A stretch of 64,000 nucleotides of DNA from Acidimicrobiia bacterium (GTDB lineage Bacteria; Actinomycetota; Acidimicrobiia; IMCC26256; JAMXLJ01). Below are positions 54,143 to 59,949 of the stretch, piece after piece (the stretch's first letter is position 1; each line of letters starts with the position of its first letter). The notes beneath the pieces were generated by a model. The model searched no databases. It saw only the letters and a list, made by a program, of their open reading frames with translations, and was not told the DNA's origin. The DNA lies in NCBI GenBank assembly GCA_035651955.1, contig DASRES010000081.1:62001-126000 (forward strand), read 5' to 3'. Position numbers and translations under genes: made by a program.

Positions 54143-54216
54143 GGGGACGTAGCTCAGCTGGCTAGAGCACCTGCTTTGCAAGCAGGGGGTCGTGGGTTCG
54201 AGTCCCATCGTCTCCA
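54143..54216 (+). tRNA. tRNA-Ala (TGC)
   Basis: A 74-nt cloverleaf: acceptor GGGGACG/CGTCTCC, D-arm AGCTCAGCTGGCTAGAGC, anticodon stem CCTGC-TTTGCAA-GCAGG with TGC anticodon, and T-arm CGTGGGTTCGAGTCCCA. CCA is not encoded. Its 3' part is repeated 5.7 kb downstream and marks the attachment site of an integrative element; the tRNA itself is complete. Confidence 0.96.
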
Positions 54217-54217
54217 C
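54175..54217 (+). repeat. attL: left copy of the 43-bp attachment repeat, inside tRNA-Ala
   Basis: Starts TTTGCAAGCAGGGGG and ends GTCTCCAC. It covers the anticodon loop through the discriminator base plus one base of tRNA-Ala and is identical to 59907-59949. Tyrosine integrases commonly use the tRNA 3' half as attB. Confidence 0.9.
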
Positions 54218-54286
54218 CGCGAAAGCCCAGGTCAGCAGGGTCGTCGCGCGTCCTGCCGGCGTGTCCACCCTCCGCCGCGCCATCCG

Positions 54287-54305
54287 CGTGCCACTTCCGT
54301 GCCAC
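54287..54305 (+). repeat. Left 19-bp repeat, possible integrase arm site
   Basis: CGTGCCACTTCCGTGCCAC, itself a near-tandem of CGTGCCAC units, lies 70 nt inside attL and recurs in the same orientation at 59781-59799. Paired short repeats inside both ends of an integrating element fit integrase arm-type binding sites; this is inference. Confidence 0.6.
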
Positions 54306-54306
54306 A

Positions 54307-54332
54307 AGACGGGGAGCCTACGCTCCCCGTCT
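54307..54332 (+). terminator. Hairpin near the left end of the element
   Basis: AGACGGGGAGC pairs with GCTCCCCGTCT over 11 bases around a CTAC loop. It lies between tRNA-Ala and the first cargo gene and may terminate the tRNA transcript or insulate the cargo. Confidence 0.55.
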
Positions 54333-54396
54333 CGAAGCGCGGGTCTGCCCCTTCCTAGTGATCCTGGGCAGAGCGCGAAGCTGTCGGGAGCGGAGC

Positions 54397-55293
54397 GTGG
54401 AGAGCGCCGACAACCCTGCACTGGGGGGATTCTCAGAGTGCGACGAGCTTACGGATCCCTTGCCTGTCAGGCAGGGCGACGTCTTCGTCTTCCTTGACGA
54501 GTACCAGGGCCCCTGGGCGCGCCTCGGCATCGTCGTTACTGCGGACTGCGACATCGCGCTGCACAAGCACGCAGGGATCCTGTCGTATGTACCTGTTCTG
54601 GAACTCACGGAGTACCTGCAGAGGTTCGTGCTCCCCCGGCAGTTGGAGCGTGCTTCGACGCCGGTCCTCGATGAGGTCCACAGGCGCGTGCGCGAACTGC
54701 AGGCGGAGCGGCGGCCTGAGTTCCCTGATCCGCTCGCGGACGACGCGATCGATCGCTGGGTGAAGGAGGCAGAATCGGCGCGCATCGCTGACGACCTCTG
54801 CGTTCCGGACGACGCGCGACCGTCCTTCGCAGAACTGATTGACCTCGCTAAGGGCTGCCTCACCGCCGGCGTCGGCGACTTTGATACGCAGTTCGAGATG
54901 CTCCGTACGCTTCGCGGCCGGGCGAGCCGCACAAAGAGGCCGGTAGGCGAGATCCTTTGGGATGAGATCCGTGAGCGCGTGCGGTCGCTTCCAGGTGACG
55001 CCTTCTTCTTGAACGCCCTAACGTCGACCGAGCGGTCGGGCTACGTCGCGTATCTTCGACTGATCCGCGAGATCAACGAGACGGAGATCGCGTTGCGGCC
55101 CCGCGATCTGCATATGAATCCCATTCGCGCGCGCCGGGTCGCTCGACTGCGGTCCCCTTATGTCTACCGCCTTACGCAGCAGTTGGCCCAGGTATTCTCA
55201 GCGATTGGTCTACCAACGGATTATGAAGATCAACGCGACAACACGGTGATGGCGCATTATGCGAGCCGACAAGTGAAGGCAGAGGACACGTAA
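54397..55293 (+). CDS. Cargo protein A of the tRNA-Ala element, unknown (partner of UvrD-like helicase)
   Basis: About 298 residues from GTG at 54397 (GGGAGCGGA upstream; the frame opens at 54358). I do not recognise the family. The N-terminal part (RQGDVFVFLDEYQGPWARLGIVVTADCDIA, shown in part) looks like a small beta-barrel with a conserved-looking CD pair and HKHAGILSYVPVLEL. The middle and C-terminal parts are helical and charged (FDTQFEMLRTLRGRASRTKR, PYVYRLTQQLAQVFSAIGLP). It shares TAATG with the helicase gene, so the two are translationally coupled and probably act together. Lower G+C and codon use (TTA, ATA, AGG) differ from the host. Confidence 0.75.
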   Translation: MESADNPALGGFSECDELTDPLPVRQGDVFVFLDEYQGPWARLGIVVTADCDIALHKHAGILSYVPVLELTEYLQRFVLPRQLERASTPVLDEVHRRVRELQAERRPEFPDPLADDAIDRWVKEAESARIADDLCVPDDARPSFAELIDLAKGCLTAGVGDFDTQFEMLRTLRGRASRTKRPVGEILWDEIRERVRSLPGDAFFLNALTSTERSGYVAYLRLIREINETEIALRPRDLHMNPIRARRVARLRSPYVYRLTQQLAQVFSAIGLPTDYEDQRDNTVMAHYASRQVKAEDT

Positions 55294-57539
55294 TGGGTCG
55301 CAATTGCGTATTTACCATCCGCTCACTCCAGGCCGTCCTGGAACATGGTGGCGATCAACGGTGGTTAGCTGAGCGGACCATTCCCAAGAATGGCGAGTGG
55401 GATGTTCTGTTAGTACATGGACCGACGGCTGATTTCATTCTGCATCGTTCAGACGATGCATCTTCGACCCGAACGATCGTATTCGCGCAGAACGAGCACT
55501 TGCTTGCCGGGCTCGCACCCGACGTATACCGCGTGGTACTTGAGCGCGTCCACCGCGTTGCCCTGGAGGCCGAGCATCCGCCCGTAACCCTGCCACTCGC
55601 GTGGAACGAGTATTGGCAGGACAACTTGATTGCGTTCTTTGCCTGTCCGCGCGACGAGGGCGCTCTGCGCTGGATCGCGGAGATACACCCACGAGGTAGC
55701 TGCGACGTCTGCTTCTGGCGGATCACGTCATCGAGTCATCAGACTGATCTCGCGCAGTTCTCGTCCGATTACTCCGCACTAGATCGCACCGTTGAAGAAT
55801 GGAACGACGCCGTAGAGTCCGCGCGGCAGCGATTTGCTGAGCTTCCCGCGCCACCGGCCAGCGCTTCCGTCCAGAACGTTCTGGATCTCGACGCGGTGAC
55901 CTTCGGTGCCGTGACGGGCCATCGCAGCTACTCGAGGTGGCTTCCGGAGCTAACTACACACCAGCGCGAGTTCGTCGAGAGTGCGACCGACCTTTCCATC
56001 AAGCTGCGAGGGCCTGCCGGTAGCGGAAAGACTCTCGCTCTCGAGCTCAAGGCGCTGCGCGAGCTTTACGGCGCTCGAGAAGCCGGGCTTTCTACGCGAA
56101 TCTTGTTCGCGACGCACAGTTGGGCGACCGCTGAGCAAGTGGATCAGGGCATCAGACGCCTGGATGAGTCTGGCGATGTCTCGCCGATCGAGGTTTACCC
56201 ACTGTTGTCGATAGCCCAGGACAAGTTGCCGGCTGAGCGGTCAGGCCATGGTTTCGACATTCTCGGCGAGGACAGCTTGAGCGGAAAGAAACTTCAGCTG
56301 GAACGTATCGACAACGTGCTGACGAGTGCCAAGCGGGGAGAATGGCTGTCTTACAGATCGAGGGTTTCCAGTCAGCTTCGCGAGCGGGTAGAGAGCGACC
56401 CCGGTTCGCGCGCGTTCAACGCGTTCGTCTGGGACCTGATGATCGAGTTCTCGTGCGTCCTGTCAGCAAACGGGATTCTCCCGAGCATCAATGCTGAGGC
56501 ACAGTACCGACATGTGCAGCGGACGCCCTGGATGATGCCGTTGGAGACGGACGCAGACAGGGCCTTCGTGCTGAGCATCTACTCGAACTACGTGTCCGCA
56601 CTCCGGGGCGAGGGCCTGCTGACGTCAGACCAATTGATCAACGACTTCCTGAACTACTTGGAGACATTCACCTGGAACATCCGTCGCGAGCACGAGGGGT
56701 ACGACCTAGTGTTCGTCGACGAGCTGCACCTCTTCAACGAGCAGGAGCGCCTGGTTCTCCACTACCTGACCCGTGATCCCGATGTGTATCCCCGTATGTT
56801 CATGGCGCTAGACCCGCGGCAGTCTCCTGCGGAGATGTATGTAGACGTGGATCGGGCCGCGATCACACGCGGCGAGAGCGGCATGGCAGACGCGTTCCTT
56901 GGAACGATTAGGTCCATGGAGCTTTCGACGGTGCACCGGTTCACGCCGCAGATCTTGCATCTCGTGCGGCACGTTAACGACACGTACCCTGCTCTTGGGC
57001 TTGGCGAGGAATGGGAGCTCGACCTGTCAGCGGTCGAATCGAGCGCTCCTAGCGGTGAAACGCCGCGACTCGTCCGTCACGCAACGCGGGCCCTAGAGGC
57101 CGAAGGTGTCCTCGCTAGGGCCGTCGACTTGGCGAGGGGTGCGACGGGAGATGCTCGTGTGGCGGTCGTCGTCCTCGAGCCGTCGTGTTTGGAGCAACTG
57201 ATCACCGCGGCTGGTAATGCCCGGTTGGGCAATGTCTCTGTGATTCAAGGTCGTGACGATATTGAGGCTTTGAGGTACACGCGCCGGAGCACTGTACTAG
57301 CGGCAGCCGAGTACGTAGGTGGACTGCAGTTCGATTCGGTGCTAGTCGCGGGTCTCCCCGACACACACACGGGTGTCGCGCACCTTGGGCACGTCCGGCG
57401 CAGATTTCTATCCCTGCTGTACTTAGCCATCTCTCGTGCAAGCAGGTACGTCGAGATTCACGTGAACGATGCAGACGGTGGCGTGCCGGACATCTTGGAA
57501 TCTGCGATCTCGAATGGAGCGCTTACAGAGCTCGTATAG
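55293..57539 (+). CDS. Cargo protein B of the tRNA-Ala element: UvrD-like superfamily 1 helicase with novel N-terminal domain
   Basis: 748 residues. The first about 225 residues are of unknown type. A superfamily 1 motor follows: LSIKLRGPAGSGKTLALELKAL (Walker A near 236-243), LVFVDELHLFNEQERLVL (Walker B DELH), MALDPRQSPAEM (motif III-like, with Q), VHRFTPQILHL (motif IV region), FDSVLVAGLPD and LYLAISRASRYVEIHV (motif VI-like SRA arginine). All catalytic motifs look present. The 5' ATG overlaps the stop of cargo A. In a tRNA-borne island with no other cargo this pairing suggests a phage-defence or DNA-processing system; that is inference. Confidence 0.85.
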   Translation: MGRNCVFTIRSLQAVLEHGGDQRWLAERTIPKNGEWDVLLVHGPTADFILHRSDDASSTRTIVFAQNEHLLAGLAPDVYRVVLERVHRVALEAEHPPVTLPLAWNEYWQDNLIAFFACPRDEGALRWIAEIHPRGSCDVCFWRITSSSHQTDLAQFSSDYSALDRTVEEWNDAVESARQRFAELPAPPASASVQNVLDLDAVTFGAVTGHRSYSRWLPELTTHQREFVESATDLSIKLRGPAGSGKTLALELKALRELYGAREAGLSTRILFATHSWATAEQVDQGIRRLDESGDVSPIEVYPLLSIAQDKLPAERSGHGFDILGEDSLSGKKLQLERIDNVLTSAKRGEWLSYRSRVSSQLRERVESDPGSRAFNAFVWDLMIEFSCVLSANGILPSINAEAQYRHVQRTPWMMPLETDADRAFVLSIYSNYVSALRGEGLLTSDQLINDFLNYLETFTWNIRREHEGYDLVFVDELHLFNEQERLVLHYLTRDPDVYPRMFMALDPRQSPAEMYVDVDRAAITRGESGMADAFLGTIRSMELSTVHRFTPQILHLVRHVNDTYPALGLGEEWELDLSAVESSAPSGETPRLVRHATRALEAEGVLARAVDLARGATGDARVAVVVLEPSCLEQLITAAGNARLGNVSVIQGRDDIEALRYTRRSTVLAAAEYVGGLQFDSVLVAGLPDTHTGVAHLGHVRRRFLSLLYLAISRASRYVEIHVNDADGGVPDILESAISNGALTELV

Positions 57540-57835
57540 AGTCTTCGCGCGATCATGGCATCTCCGGACCAGCGTGTGAATGCAAGGCTATCGGTTCTCG
57601 ATACTGAGGCGAAGGGTTTGCGCACTGGCTCAATACACTCGGCTGGCGCGCCTCGGGCGAAGTATTCGACGATGGAACCGCGCGCCTATTGGAAGACATC
57701 TCTGAAGCCGGAGATGCGAGCGGTCCACCAGAGTGTTAGCGTGAAGGGCTTGCGAGCGTCGCTCGCATGACTTTCGCGACATTCGCCGGGCCGCGCGCCG
57801 GCGACGGCCTGTTCATTTGGTTGGCTCCGGCGACA
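57540..57835. other. Intergenic region between cargo helicase and integrase
   Basis: About 296 nt between convergent genes. Two short plus-strand open frames (57555-57770 and 57767-57976) have no recognisable family, weak starts and no ribosome-binding site, and the second runs into the integrase gene. I see no clear terminator or RNA gene. Confidence 0.5.
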
Positions 57836-58987
57836 TCATGCGAGCGGTCCGGAATGCTGGGCGTTACGGGGCTCGCGGGTGTTGCTCACCGGGATAGCGA
57901 CGCTATCGAGGAAGGCTGCAATCGTCTGATCCTGTCCGTCCATGCGGTGCTGGTACCGGAGGGCGGCGGCTGCTGACGCGTGGCCGAGGCGGTGCATGAC
58001 GGCACGGAGCGGGGCACCGCTGGCGGCGGCCAGCGTCGCGTTGGTGTGGCGGAGGTCGTGGAAGCGGACGCCCTCGACTCCCGCCTTCCGGCACGCGGGC
58101 AGCCACACTCGCCTTCGGAAGTTCTCCCGTCGGAGAGGGGCGCCGTCAGGCATCGTGAAGACGAGGCCCTCGGTGCCGGGCTCGCTCCATCTCGCCAGGT
58201 GCTCGACCATGACGTCGCAGATGAACTGCGGGAGCACCACGGTCCTCGTCCCCGCGCTCGTCTTCGGCGGGCCCCACACGAAACGGCCGTTCACCTGGGT
58301 GCACTGCTCGACGACGCGGACCGTCTTGTGCAGCGGGTCGAGGTAGCGCCTCCGTAGGCCGGCGAGCTCGCCCCAGCGGAGGCCGCTGTACGCGGCCAGA
58401 AGCACAAGCGCTTGCCACCTCGGCTCGACTGCTTGCGCGATCGCGCTGACCTCTTCGACCGTCGCGCAGCGCATCTCGGGCAGCCGCTCGGTGCCGGCGC
58501 CCTTGACTCGGCACGGGTTGCGCAGGATCAGGCCCGCGTCGAGGCCTGACTCCATGACTGTACGGAGCAGCTTGTAGGTCTTCGCGACGCTGTTCGCTCC
58601 CATCCGCGTGTTGGCGTGTCGGTCCGCGATCCAGACCTGGACGTCGAGCGTCGTGATCGAGCCGACGGCGCGCTCGCCGAACGTCGGCAGGATGTGGTTG
58701 TCGAGCAGCGTCCGGTAGATGTACTTCGTGGACTCCCGCAGGTGCTGCTTCGTCATGTACCACTGCTCAGCGACGTCGACGAACAGGACCTCGCCGCGCT
58801 TCGGGTCGTGCCACACGCCGCGTGTCATGTCGGCCTCGAGGATCGACAACCACCGCGCCGCGTCGGTCTTCGTGGCGAACGTCGTCTCCGCCGTGCGGTA
58901 GCGGTTTGTCTCCGGATCGCGGTACCGCGCTTGCCACCGACCCGACGACAGCTTGCGGATCGCGCCGAACCGGCGCCGGCCGTTCAC
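57836..58987 (-). CDS. Tyrosine-type site-specific integrase
   Basis: A 383-residue phage-type integrase that would recombine the element at tRNA-Ala. An AP2-like arm-binding N-terminus (GRWQARYRDPETNRYRTAETTFATK, in part) precedes a SAM-like core-binding domain (VAEQWYMTKQHLRESTKYIYR). The catalytic domain has all residues: Arg in SGLRWGELAGL, Lys in PPKTSAGTRTV, HDLRHTNATL (His-x-x-Arg), HRLGHASAAAALRYQHR (His and the nucleophile Tyr). GTG at 58987 overlaps the upstream gene by GTGA. The gene appears complete and active. Confidence 0.93.
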   Translation of the reverse strand: MNGRRRFGAIRKLSSGRWQARYRDPETNRYRTAETTFATKTDAARWLSILEADMTRGVWHDPKRGEVLFVDVAEQWYMTKQHLRESTKYIYRTLLDNHILPTFGERAVGSITTLDVQVWIADRHANTRMGANSVAKTYKLLRTVMESGLDAGLILRNPCRVKGAGTERLPEMRCATVEEVSAIAQAVEPRWQALVLLAAYSGLRWGELAGLRRRYLDPLHKTVRVVEQCTQVNGRFVWGPPKTSAGTRTVVLPQFICDVMVEHLARWSEPGTEGLVFTMPDGAPLRRENFRRRVWLPACRKAGVEGVRFHDLRHTNATLAAASGAPLRAVMHRLGHASAAAALRYQHRMDGQDQTIAAFLDSVAIPVSNTREPRNAQHSGPLA

Positions 58988-59697
58988 TGCCCGCCGCCTT
59001 CGTGACGCTTCGCTTCACGCTCGACCAGGAGACCGACGAGCCGGCCGGCGGACACGTCCGCGTCGAGCGCCAACGCCCGGAACGCCGCCCACGTCTCCTC
59101 GTCGACGAACAGCCGCGCGAACCGACGTTCAGGCGTCCGTGCAGGCGAGCGTCGAGGGACCACGCGGTCCTGTACAGCGCGATCGACGAGCTGCGCGACC
59201 TTGTCGCCCATCGCGAGGCGCTCCCAGTACGCGGCGCCCTTCACCGTCGCCCACGCGGCGGCGTCGACGTCGATCTTCACCGGGTGGTTCGGACGGCGCC
59301 GTTCCGTCGCGGAGTCGCGCTCCGACTCCCGCCGGCGTCGATTGCGGATCGCGTCGGCCTTGCGCGTCAGGCGTCGTCGTTCGATCGCGCCACGCCGCAA
59401 CGCTTCGTCGTACTCGTACGCGGCGTCCGCGAGCGCCATCGCGTGCTCGTAGCGCGCCACGTATCGGCGCGTGAACTCGTCGACCGACTCGGTCCGCGTG
59501 CGATCGACGCCGGGCTCGGGCTCCAACAACGCCGCCGCGTCGTCGAGCATCACGGCCGGGTCGAGCGTGCCGTCCCGCGTGCTTCGCGTGCTTCGGCCGG
59601 TGCCGGTAGCGGCACCGGCAAGTCTGTAAGAGAGCTTCGGGGCGGATTCAGGCGCGCGCGTGAACAGCGCGTCGCGGTCGTCGGGGTTCGGGTGCAT
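58984..59697 (-). CDS. Ribbon-helix-helix-like element protein
   Basis: A 237-residue basic/acidic protein with no certain family. Two similar segments, KIDVDAAAWATVKGAAYWE...KVAQLVDRAV and LFVDEETWAAFRALALDAD...RLVGLLVERE, each have the strand-helix-helix pattern of ribbon-helix-helix DNA-binding proteins found on actinobacterial plasmids and islands. The central part is a charged helix rich in Arg and Glu. ATG at 59697 has GGAGACG upstream. It overlaps the integrase start, so it may regulate excision or bind the element ends (excisionase-like role is inference). Confidence 0.6.
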   Translation of the reverse strand: MHPNPDDRDALFTRAPESAPKLSYRLAGAATGTGRSTRSTRDGTLDPAVMLDDAAALLEPEPGVDRTRTESVDEFTRRYVARYEHAMALADAAYEYDEALRRGAIERRRLTRKADAIRNRRRRESERDSATERRRPNHPVKIDVDAAAWATVKGAAYWERLAMGDKVAQLVDRAVQDRVVPRRSPARTPERRFARLFVDEETWAAFRALALDADVSAGRLVGLLVEREAKRHEGGGQ

Positions 59698-59780
59698 GTG
59701 CGTCTCCGTAGTGGTCGACGGTGATGGCACCCGAGGGGAAGCGCGTGATGCAGCTGACGCGCGACCGATCGGGTGCCCGT

Positions 59781-59799
59781 CGTGCCACTTCCGTGCCAC
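59781..59799 (+). repeat. Right 19-bp repeat, possible integrase arm site
   Basis: CGTGCCACTTCCGTGCCAC, identical and same orientation as 54287-54305, 107 nt inside attR and directly upstream of the RHH-integrase operon. Confidence 0.6.
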
Positions 59800-59906
59800 T
59801 ACGGACGGCAACTCGGGGTGACGCGAGGGCACTCAGCGGTAGCGCCCAGCCCCGCTGACCAGCACTTCCGCGAATACGCCCTACTCCCAGAACCGCCTGA
59901 TCGCCG

Positions 59907-59949
59907 TTTGCAAGCAGGGGGTCGTGGGTTCGAGTCCCATCGTCTCCAC
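59907..59949 (+). repeat. attR: right copy of the 43-bp attachment repeat
   Basis: Identical to 54175-54217. It lacks the 5' half of the tRNA (the preceding sequence TGATCGCCG is unrelated), so it is not a tRNA gene but the right junction of the element. Confidence 0.9.

Follow-up and report, generated by a model that had tools for sequence, protein, structure and literature searches.

The 64,000-nt stretch of Acidimicrobiia DNA analyzed here (hereafter the window) carries a mobile element of 5.7 kb at positions 54175-59949, inside a tRNA-Ala (TGC) gene identified with ARAGORN (54143..54218, forward strand). The element is bounded by exact 43-bp direct repeats: attL (54175..54217, forward strand), which corresponds to the 3' end of the tRNA-Ala gene, and attR (59907..59949, forward strand), a copy of this 3' end that is identical to attL at 43 of 43 bases, with a spacing of 5732 between the two. 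It encodes a tyrosine integrase on the reverse strand (57836..58987; PF00589, E 1.6e-19), a coupled pair of genes on the forward strand that we term gene A and gene B, and an accessory ORF of 282 aa (58984..59832, reverse strand) that overlaps the start of the integrase gene and found no match in Pfam, NCBIfam, PADLOC or PHROG. The accessory ORF is possibly a directionality or partition factor. It has one relative in the order (genome G475, 33% identity), located close to another integrase from the family of the window integrase. An earlier reading of this DNA from its sequence alone (the sequence-only reading) had described the pair as the only cargo of a small tRNA-integrated element. The exact repeats, the integrase and the coupled genes bear this out, and the pair is the sole recognizable cargo apart from the 282-aa ORF.

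The pair differs in composition from its surroundings, as had been noted before. Its G+C content is 60.7%; the integrase gene has 68.8%, the accessory ORF 71.1% and the window upstream of the element (positions 1-54142) 71.6%. The two genes of the pair have GC3 values of 0.75 and 0.70, whereas those of the integrase and a gene in the flank are 0.89-0.90. In two genomes from other families of the order (G403 and G452), integrases of the same family (77% and 65% DNA identity, respectively) are found directly after the same tRNA-Ala gene and without either gene A or gene B. Thus, this integrase family targets tRNA-Ala and its cargo is exchangeable, which agrees with the earlier proposal that the pair was acquired separately from the integrase. 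For an empty-site comparison, one genome of the same genus was available; its contig stops ~200 bp past the tRNA gene, with the right flank placed on a different contig.

Gene B (55293..57539, forward strand) begins with an ATG that overlaps the TAA stop codon of gene A (TAATG) and encodes a 748-aa UvrD/PcrA/Rep-like SF1A helicase. The protein matches PF00580 from residue 220 (E 1.6e-7), and its top fold matches are UvrD, PcrA and Rep (E 8e-17). Its Walker A motif is GPAGSGKT (residues 240-247; 56010..56033, forward strand), and the pattern GxAGxGKT, the Walker B residues DE (476-477) and the motif VI arginine R715 are invariant in 36 of 36 family members. Ahead of the PF00580 region lies an extra N-terminal domain (approximately residues 1-205; 55293..55907, forward strand) for which no database match was found, followed in the structural model by a low-confidence linker at residues 189-207. 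Judged from these motifs and profile matches, gene B is an intact UvrD-like SF1A helicase with an added N-terminal domain, and both this architecture and the coupling to gene A are as the sequence-only reading had described them.

Gene A (54397..55293, forward strand) encodes a 298-aa protein that starts at a GTG codon with a GGAG sequence just 5' of it; another possible GTG start lies at 54358. The window protein had no match in Pfam, NCBIfam, PADLOC or PHROG, which leaves it outside the housekeeping families of these libraries. A scan of 31 homologues yielded only single, weak and inconsistent matches in Pfam, with PF02452 absent from the matches of all 31 members at E <= 1, and no PDB sequence matched either gene A or its profile. 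An AlphaFold2 model based on 31 sequences (mean pLDDT 91.6) predicts a beta-barrel, with a helical insertion at approximately residues 70-196. The barrel expected by the sequence-only reading is therefore predicted, but not as a feature of the N-terminus alone, as strands from both the N- and C-terminal parts of the chain build it.

Several comparisons suggest that this barrel has the MazF/PemK fold. A Foldseek search of the PDB returned mostly MazF chains, with probabilities of up to 0.99 and full-length alignments with TM-scores on the target of 0.65-0.78; the best E value of 0.066 is weak, so the fold call is based on the consistency of these matches and on profile similarity. A fold search of viral structures gave nothing convincing. 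Profile comparison with hhalign matched gene A to PemK proteins of related genomes at P 6e-4, a value reached by 0 of 60 column shuffles (best P of 0.16 among the shuffles and the reversed profile), and aligned QGD...IVIT...YVPV of gene A with RGE...VVVS...VVPVT of PemK. The positions in gene A that align with the MazF catalytic residues, which we take to be the Arg of RP and the Thr of PxT, show no conserved Arg or Thr. Only C51, D52, K57 and G271 are, besides the start Met, fully invariant (36 of 36 homologues), the first three forming the motif C51-D52-x4-K57 (54547..54567, forward strand), and R221 is kept in 34 of 36. The family occurs in three sequence variants: ADCD, ARCD and PACD. Based on the model, gene A is a MazF-fold protein, yet not a canonical MazF, since the MazF catalytic positions are not kept and C51, D52, K57 and G271 are invariant instead. 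With those positions unconserved, gene A may not be an RNase.

A short relative of gene A was found in genome G264 (L075:1258-1818), adjoining a TIGR04255 gene at 36-851. Like gene A, it has a QGDI...TCDLAxxK motif and a C-terminal RxGLP region, and it scores 49 bits against the gene A profile. Unlike gene A, it is only 187 aa long with a short insertion, and no helicase is seen in its 3.3-kb locus. Thus, the CD-type MazF-fold family extends beyond its helicase-paired members.

The A-B pair is a conserved module. A search for the same arrangement in other genomes, as the sequence-only reading had suggested, recovered adjacent A and B genes in many of them, spanning Actinomycetota, Pseudomonadota, Spirochaetota, Bacillota, Verrucomicrobiota and Fibrobacterota, as well as plasmids, a P2-like Klebsiella phage and a P4-like satellite. 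Scanning genomes with the helicase gave 24 loci, in hosts that include Mycolicibacterium, Microbacterium, Treponema, many Pseudomonadota, Lachnoclostridium, Verrucomicrobiota, Fibrobacterota and a deltaproteobacterium, and further loci were found on viral contigs. A gene A homologue lies directly upstream of every helicase relative that has enough upstream sequence, the three exceptions (L018, L022 and L041) beginning at contig ends, and in most loci the two genes overlap by 4 bp or lie a few bp apart. The distances within the A and B families are strongly correlated (Mantel r = 0.93 for 36 pairs, with 0 of 10,000 permutations as high), as predicted by joint inheritance. In two loci the gene A frame is disrupted, by a stop codon in one (L028) and by a start that lies in a different frame from the remainder in the other (L033). 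Within the phylum of the window, a full-length gene A was found in 1 of 397 genomes, namely the window's own.

On plasmids, A and B were found adjacent in Agrobacterium pusense (two plasmids), Undibacterium, Paraburkholderia, Azoarcus and Escherichia coli. A match was present in 65 of 5426 E. coli genomes and was plasmid-borne in every one. On the E. coli plasmid pACN001-B (L009:8577-9354), gene A is broken into two ORFs that overlap, whereas the annotation of pF11-2 (L057:7542-8318) shows it as one intact gene. One plasmid copy of the pair has the accessions WP_001610297-WP_001610298. The Shewanella plasmid pSx1 (L010:9983-10555) carries a shortened gene A without the helicase, slightly downstream of an integrase gene, which is probably a decayed copy. 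On the two A. pusense plasmids and that of Undibacterium, a cassette of multiubiquitin, ThiF (E1) and DUF6527 genes adjoins the pair in differing orientations (L004:8438-10765, L005:5806-8430 and L006:14069-16396), which may reflect either a common defense island or a functional link. A regular link between this cassette and the pair was considered and set aside, with Multi_ubiq matching 0 of 24 other hosts; as the control genomes gave no match either, the cassette may still be present in these hosts.

We examined the genomic surroundings of the pair. In the complete genome of the P2-like Klebsiella phage ST16-OXA48phi5.4 (NC_049450), it (gp16-gp15) is flanked by the portal gene and the gene for the replication-nicking protein gpA, and the gpA-gpQ region of P2-like phages is a hotspot of anti-phage systems (PMC9122126). 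On a P4-like satellite contig (L042), the pair is located between psu, identified by its match to PDB entry 3rx6 (E 1e-73), and an integrase gene that adjoins a tRNA; the psu-int interval of P4 is a hotspot of validated anti-phage systems (PMC9122126). In another locus (L049), an integrase gene is found directly upstream of the pair. Three loci lie at type I restriction-modification (RM) genes, with hsdM called from its NPPY/NPPF motif and Pfam tallies. In Treponema (L014) the gene order is hsdR, hsdS, hsdM, hsdS, A, B, and A is only 4 bp away from the adjacent hsdS; L034 has the order hsdM, hsdS, A, B and a 25-bp interval at the hsdS-A junction; and in L032 A and B are followed downstream by hsdM and an HsdR-like ORF. 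The Treponema RM cluster also contains, two genes past the pair, an ORF that appears macrodomain-like by eye (L014:12531-13067).

The 128 genes located within three genes of the pair matched 121 PADLOC models at 1e-15, which correspond to a handful of genes as the models are often near-duplicates. Type I methylases and specificity subunits headed the matches, and BrxL was found by Pfam as well. By comparison, a control set of 92 genes, drawn from the first contigs of 17 of the 24 hosts, matched 1 model at this threshold. No transfer or conjugation genes adjoin the pair in the annotated neighborhoods, contrary to the placement that the sequence-only reading had associated with a role in transfer. 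The pair is thus located in defense islands and hotspots, and the P2 gpA-gpQ and P4 psu-int positions, the type I RM operons and the neighbors rich in defense models indicate that its context is clearly one of defense and not of generic DNA processing.

Our combined findings suggest, with somewhat better than even probability, that A and B make up a two-component anti-phage system composed of a helicase sensor and a MazF-fold effector, carried as exchangeable cargo by mobile elements; the pair is probably a defense system undescribed in the databases searched. The sequence-only reading had proposed a defense or DNA-processing system, and it is from the hotspots, the RM operons and the defense-rich neighbors that we infer the former. 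In the mechanism that we envisage, gene B would translocate on DNA and sense the ends or single-stranded regions that are typical of invading or replicating phage. Its N-terminal domain would probably contact gene A, the MazF-fold effector, which would be kept inactive by, or together with, gene B until ATP-driven translocation by gene B frees or positions it. Gene A would then cut or block nucleic acid, with RNA the likeliest target in view of its fold, and its action would halt the infection, probably at a cost to the cell. A more specific proposal, which we put forward tentatively and consider somewhat doubtful, is that gene A founds a new family of effectors in which a MazF barrel carries a Cys-Asp-Lys center in place of the RNase center and is switched on by a DNA-translocating UvrD-like helicase. 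If this proposal is true, the pair would be a widespread and as yet unnamed anti-phage system that ties a sensor of DNA state to an RNA- or protein-directed effector.

Gene A may instead be a non-enzymatic subunit, a nucleic-acid-binding protein or adaptor that picks the substrate while the helicase acts on intermediates of phage replication or recombination by unwinding or stripping them. This is consistent with the lack of conservation at the Arg and Thr positions that are catalytic in MazF, with how few residues of gene A (C51, D52, K57 and G271, besides the start Met) are fully invariant, and with the fully intact helicase. However, an invariant Cys-Asp-Lys set shared across several phyla resembles an active or ligand-binding site more than a scaffold, and we consider this explanation unlikely. 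The pairs that directly abut hsd genes in the same direction (L014 and L034), and the one near hsdM (L032), raise the question of whether the pair serves type I RM systems, either as a guard or accessory that becomes active when restriction is inhibited or as a helper of HsdR. PrrC is a known protein that acts when restriction is inhibited. Yet most copies, including those in the window, in the P2 and P4 hotspots and on plasmids, have no adjoining RM genes, making such a dependence quite improbable.

Two further explanations look to the mobile element itself. A toxin-antitoxin or addiction module, with gene A as the toxin and the helicase as its antitoxin or regulator, would stabilize the element, and the MazF fold of gene A, the coupling of the two genes on mobile elements and the existence of short gene A relatives without a helicase fit this role. 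Nonetheless, an ATPase of 750 aa would be an unusual antitoxin, gene A lacks the MazF catalytic residues and a location in defense hotspots requires no function in addiction; we therefore regard such a module as very unlikely. Lastly, the pair could take part in replication, excision or transfer of the element, since helicases are known from such elements and the pair adjoins an integrase gene in the window and in L049. This is highly improbable, given that the pair recurs where the replication modules are unrelated, namely on plasmids, in a complete P2-like phage and P4-like satellites and within RM operons, that related integrases occupy the same tRNA-Ala gene without it, and that conjugation genes do not adjoin it.

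Pairs of a helicase and an effector constitute one of the major classes of bacterial immune systems, and we compared the A-B pair, read as a helicase-sensor and MazF-fold-effector system, with known members of this class. Hachiman (HamAB) likewise consists of two genes for a small effector and a helicase and follows a sensor-helicase/effector logic, in which HamB holds back the effector nuclease HamA until HamB meets damaged DNA (PMC12278908). However, HamA is a DUF1837 nuclease, whereas gene A has a predicted MazF fold and no Pfam match; no DUF1837 match was found among the gene A members with Pfam or PADLOC, and the match to the helicase core was weak. HamB is an SF2 helicase, whereas the helicase of the pair is a UvrD-like SF1 protein with PF00580. 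Gabija (GajAB) has a UvrD-like SF1 helicase partner, as does the pair, and GajB models gave more PADLOC matches to the helicase family than any others, with an E value of 0.009 for the window helicase, again a weak helicase-core match. In contrast, the OLD ATPase/TOPRIM protein GajA is unmatched in gene A, which is unrelated and much smaller and gave no GajA-type match in PADLOC or Pfam. The proposed system resembles Hachiman and Gabija in its logic, but the suggestion of the sequence-only reading that the pair is neither of them stands, the defining partner domains of both having been sought in gene A and not found.

AbiO and NERD-UvrD were rejected as well, with weak matches to the helicase core only. 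Helicase-DUF2290 (Rousset 2022) resembles the pair in combining a helicase with a small partner protein and in its presence in P4 hotspots. Its gene order is reversed, with the helicase preceding DUF2290 (locus L105), and its profile matches gene B weakly, over the P-loop region (E 1e-11). No DUF2290 (PF10053) match was found in the gene A members, and the true DUF2290 locus had no match to the gene A profile. The MazF/PemK mRNA interferases share the barrel fold and the aligned barrel motifs with gene A, but gene A has a large helical insertion and C-D-K in place of RP/PxT, and it is paired with a helicase whereas they are paired with MazE. In the open literature, which was the scope of our search, no paper was found that names the pair or its accessions. 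The pair appears to belong to the helicase-effector type of defense, with an effector family that is undescribed in the libraries searched: it spans at least six phyla as well as phages, satellites and plasmids, while Pfam, NCBIfam, PADLOC 2.0 and PHROGs all lack the effector family. The predicted fold of gene A offers a concrete link, open to testing, from DNA sensing to an effector of the MazF type, and the natural copies in the P2-like phage, the P4-like satellite and the enterobacterial plasmids should be directly usable in E. coli K-12.
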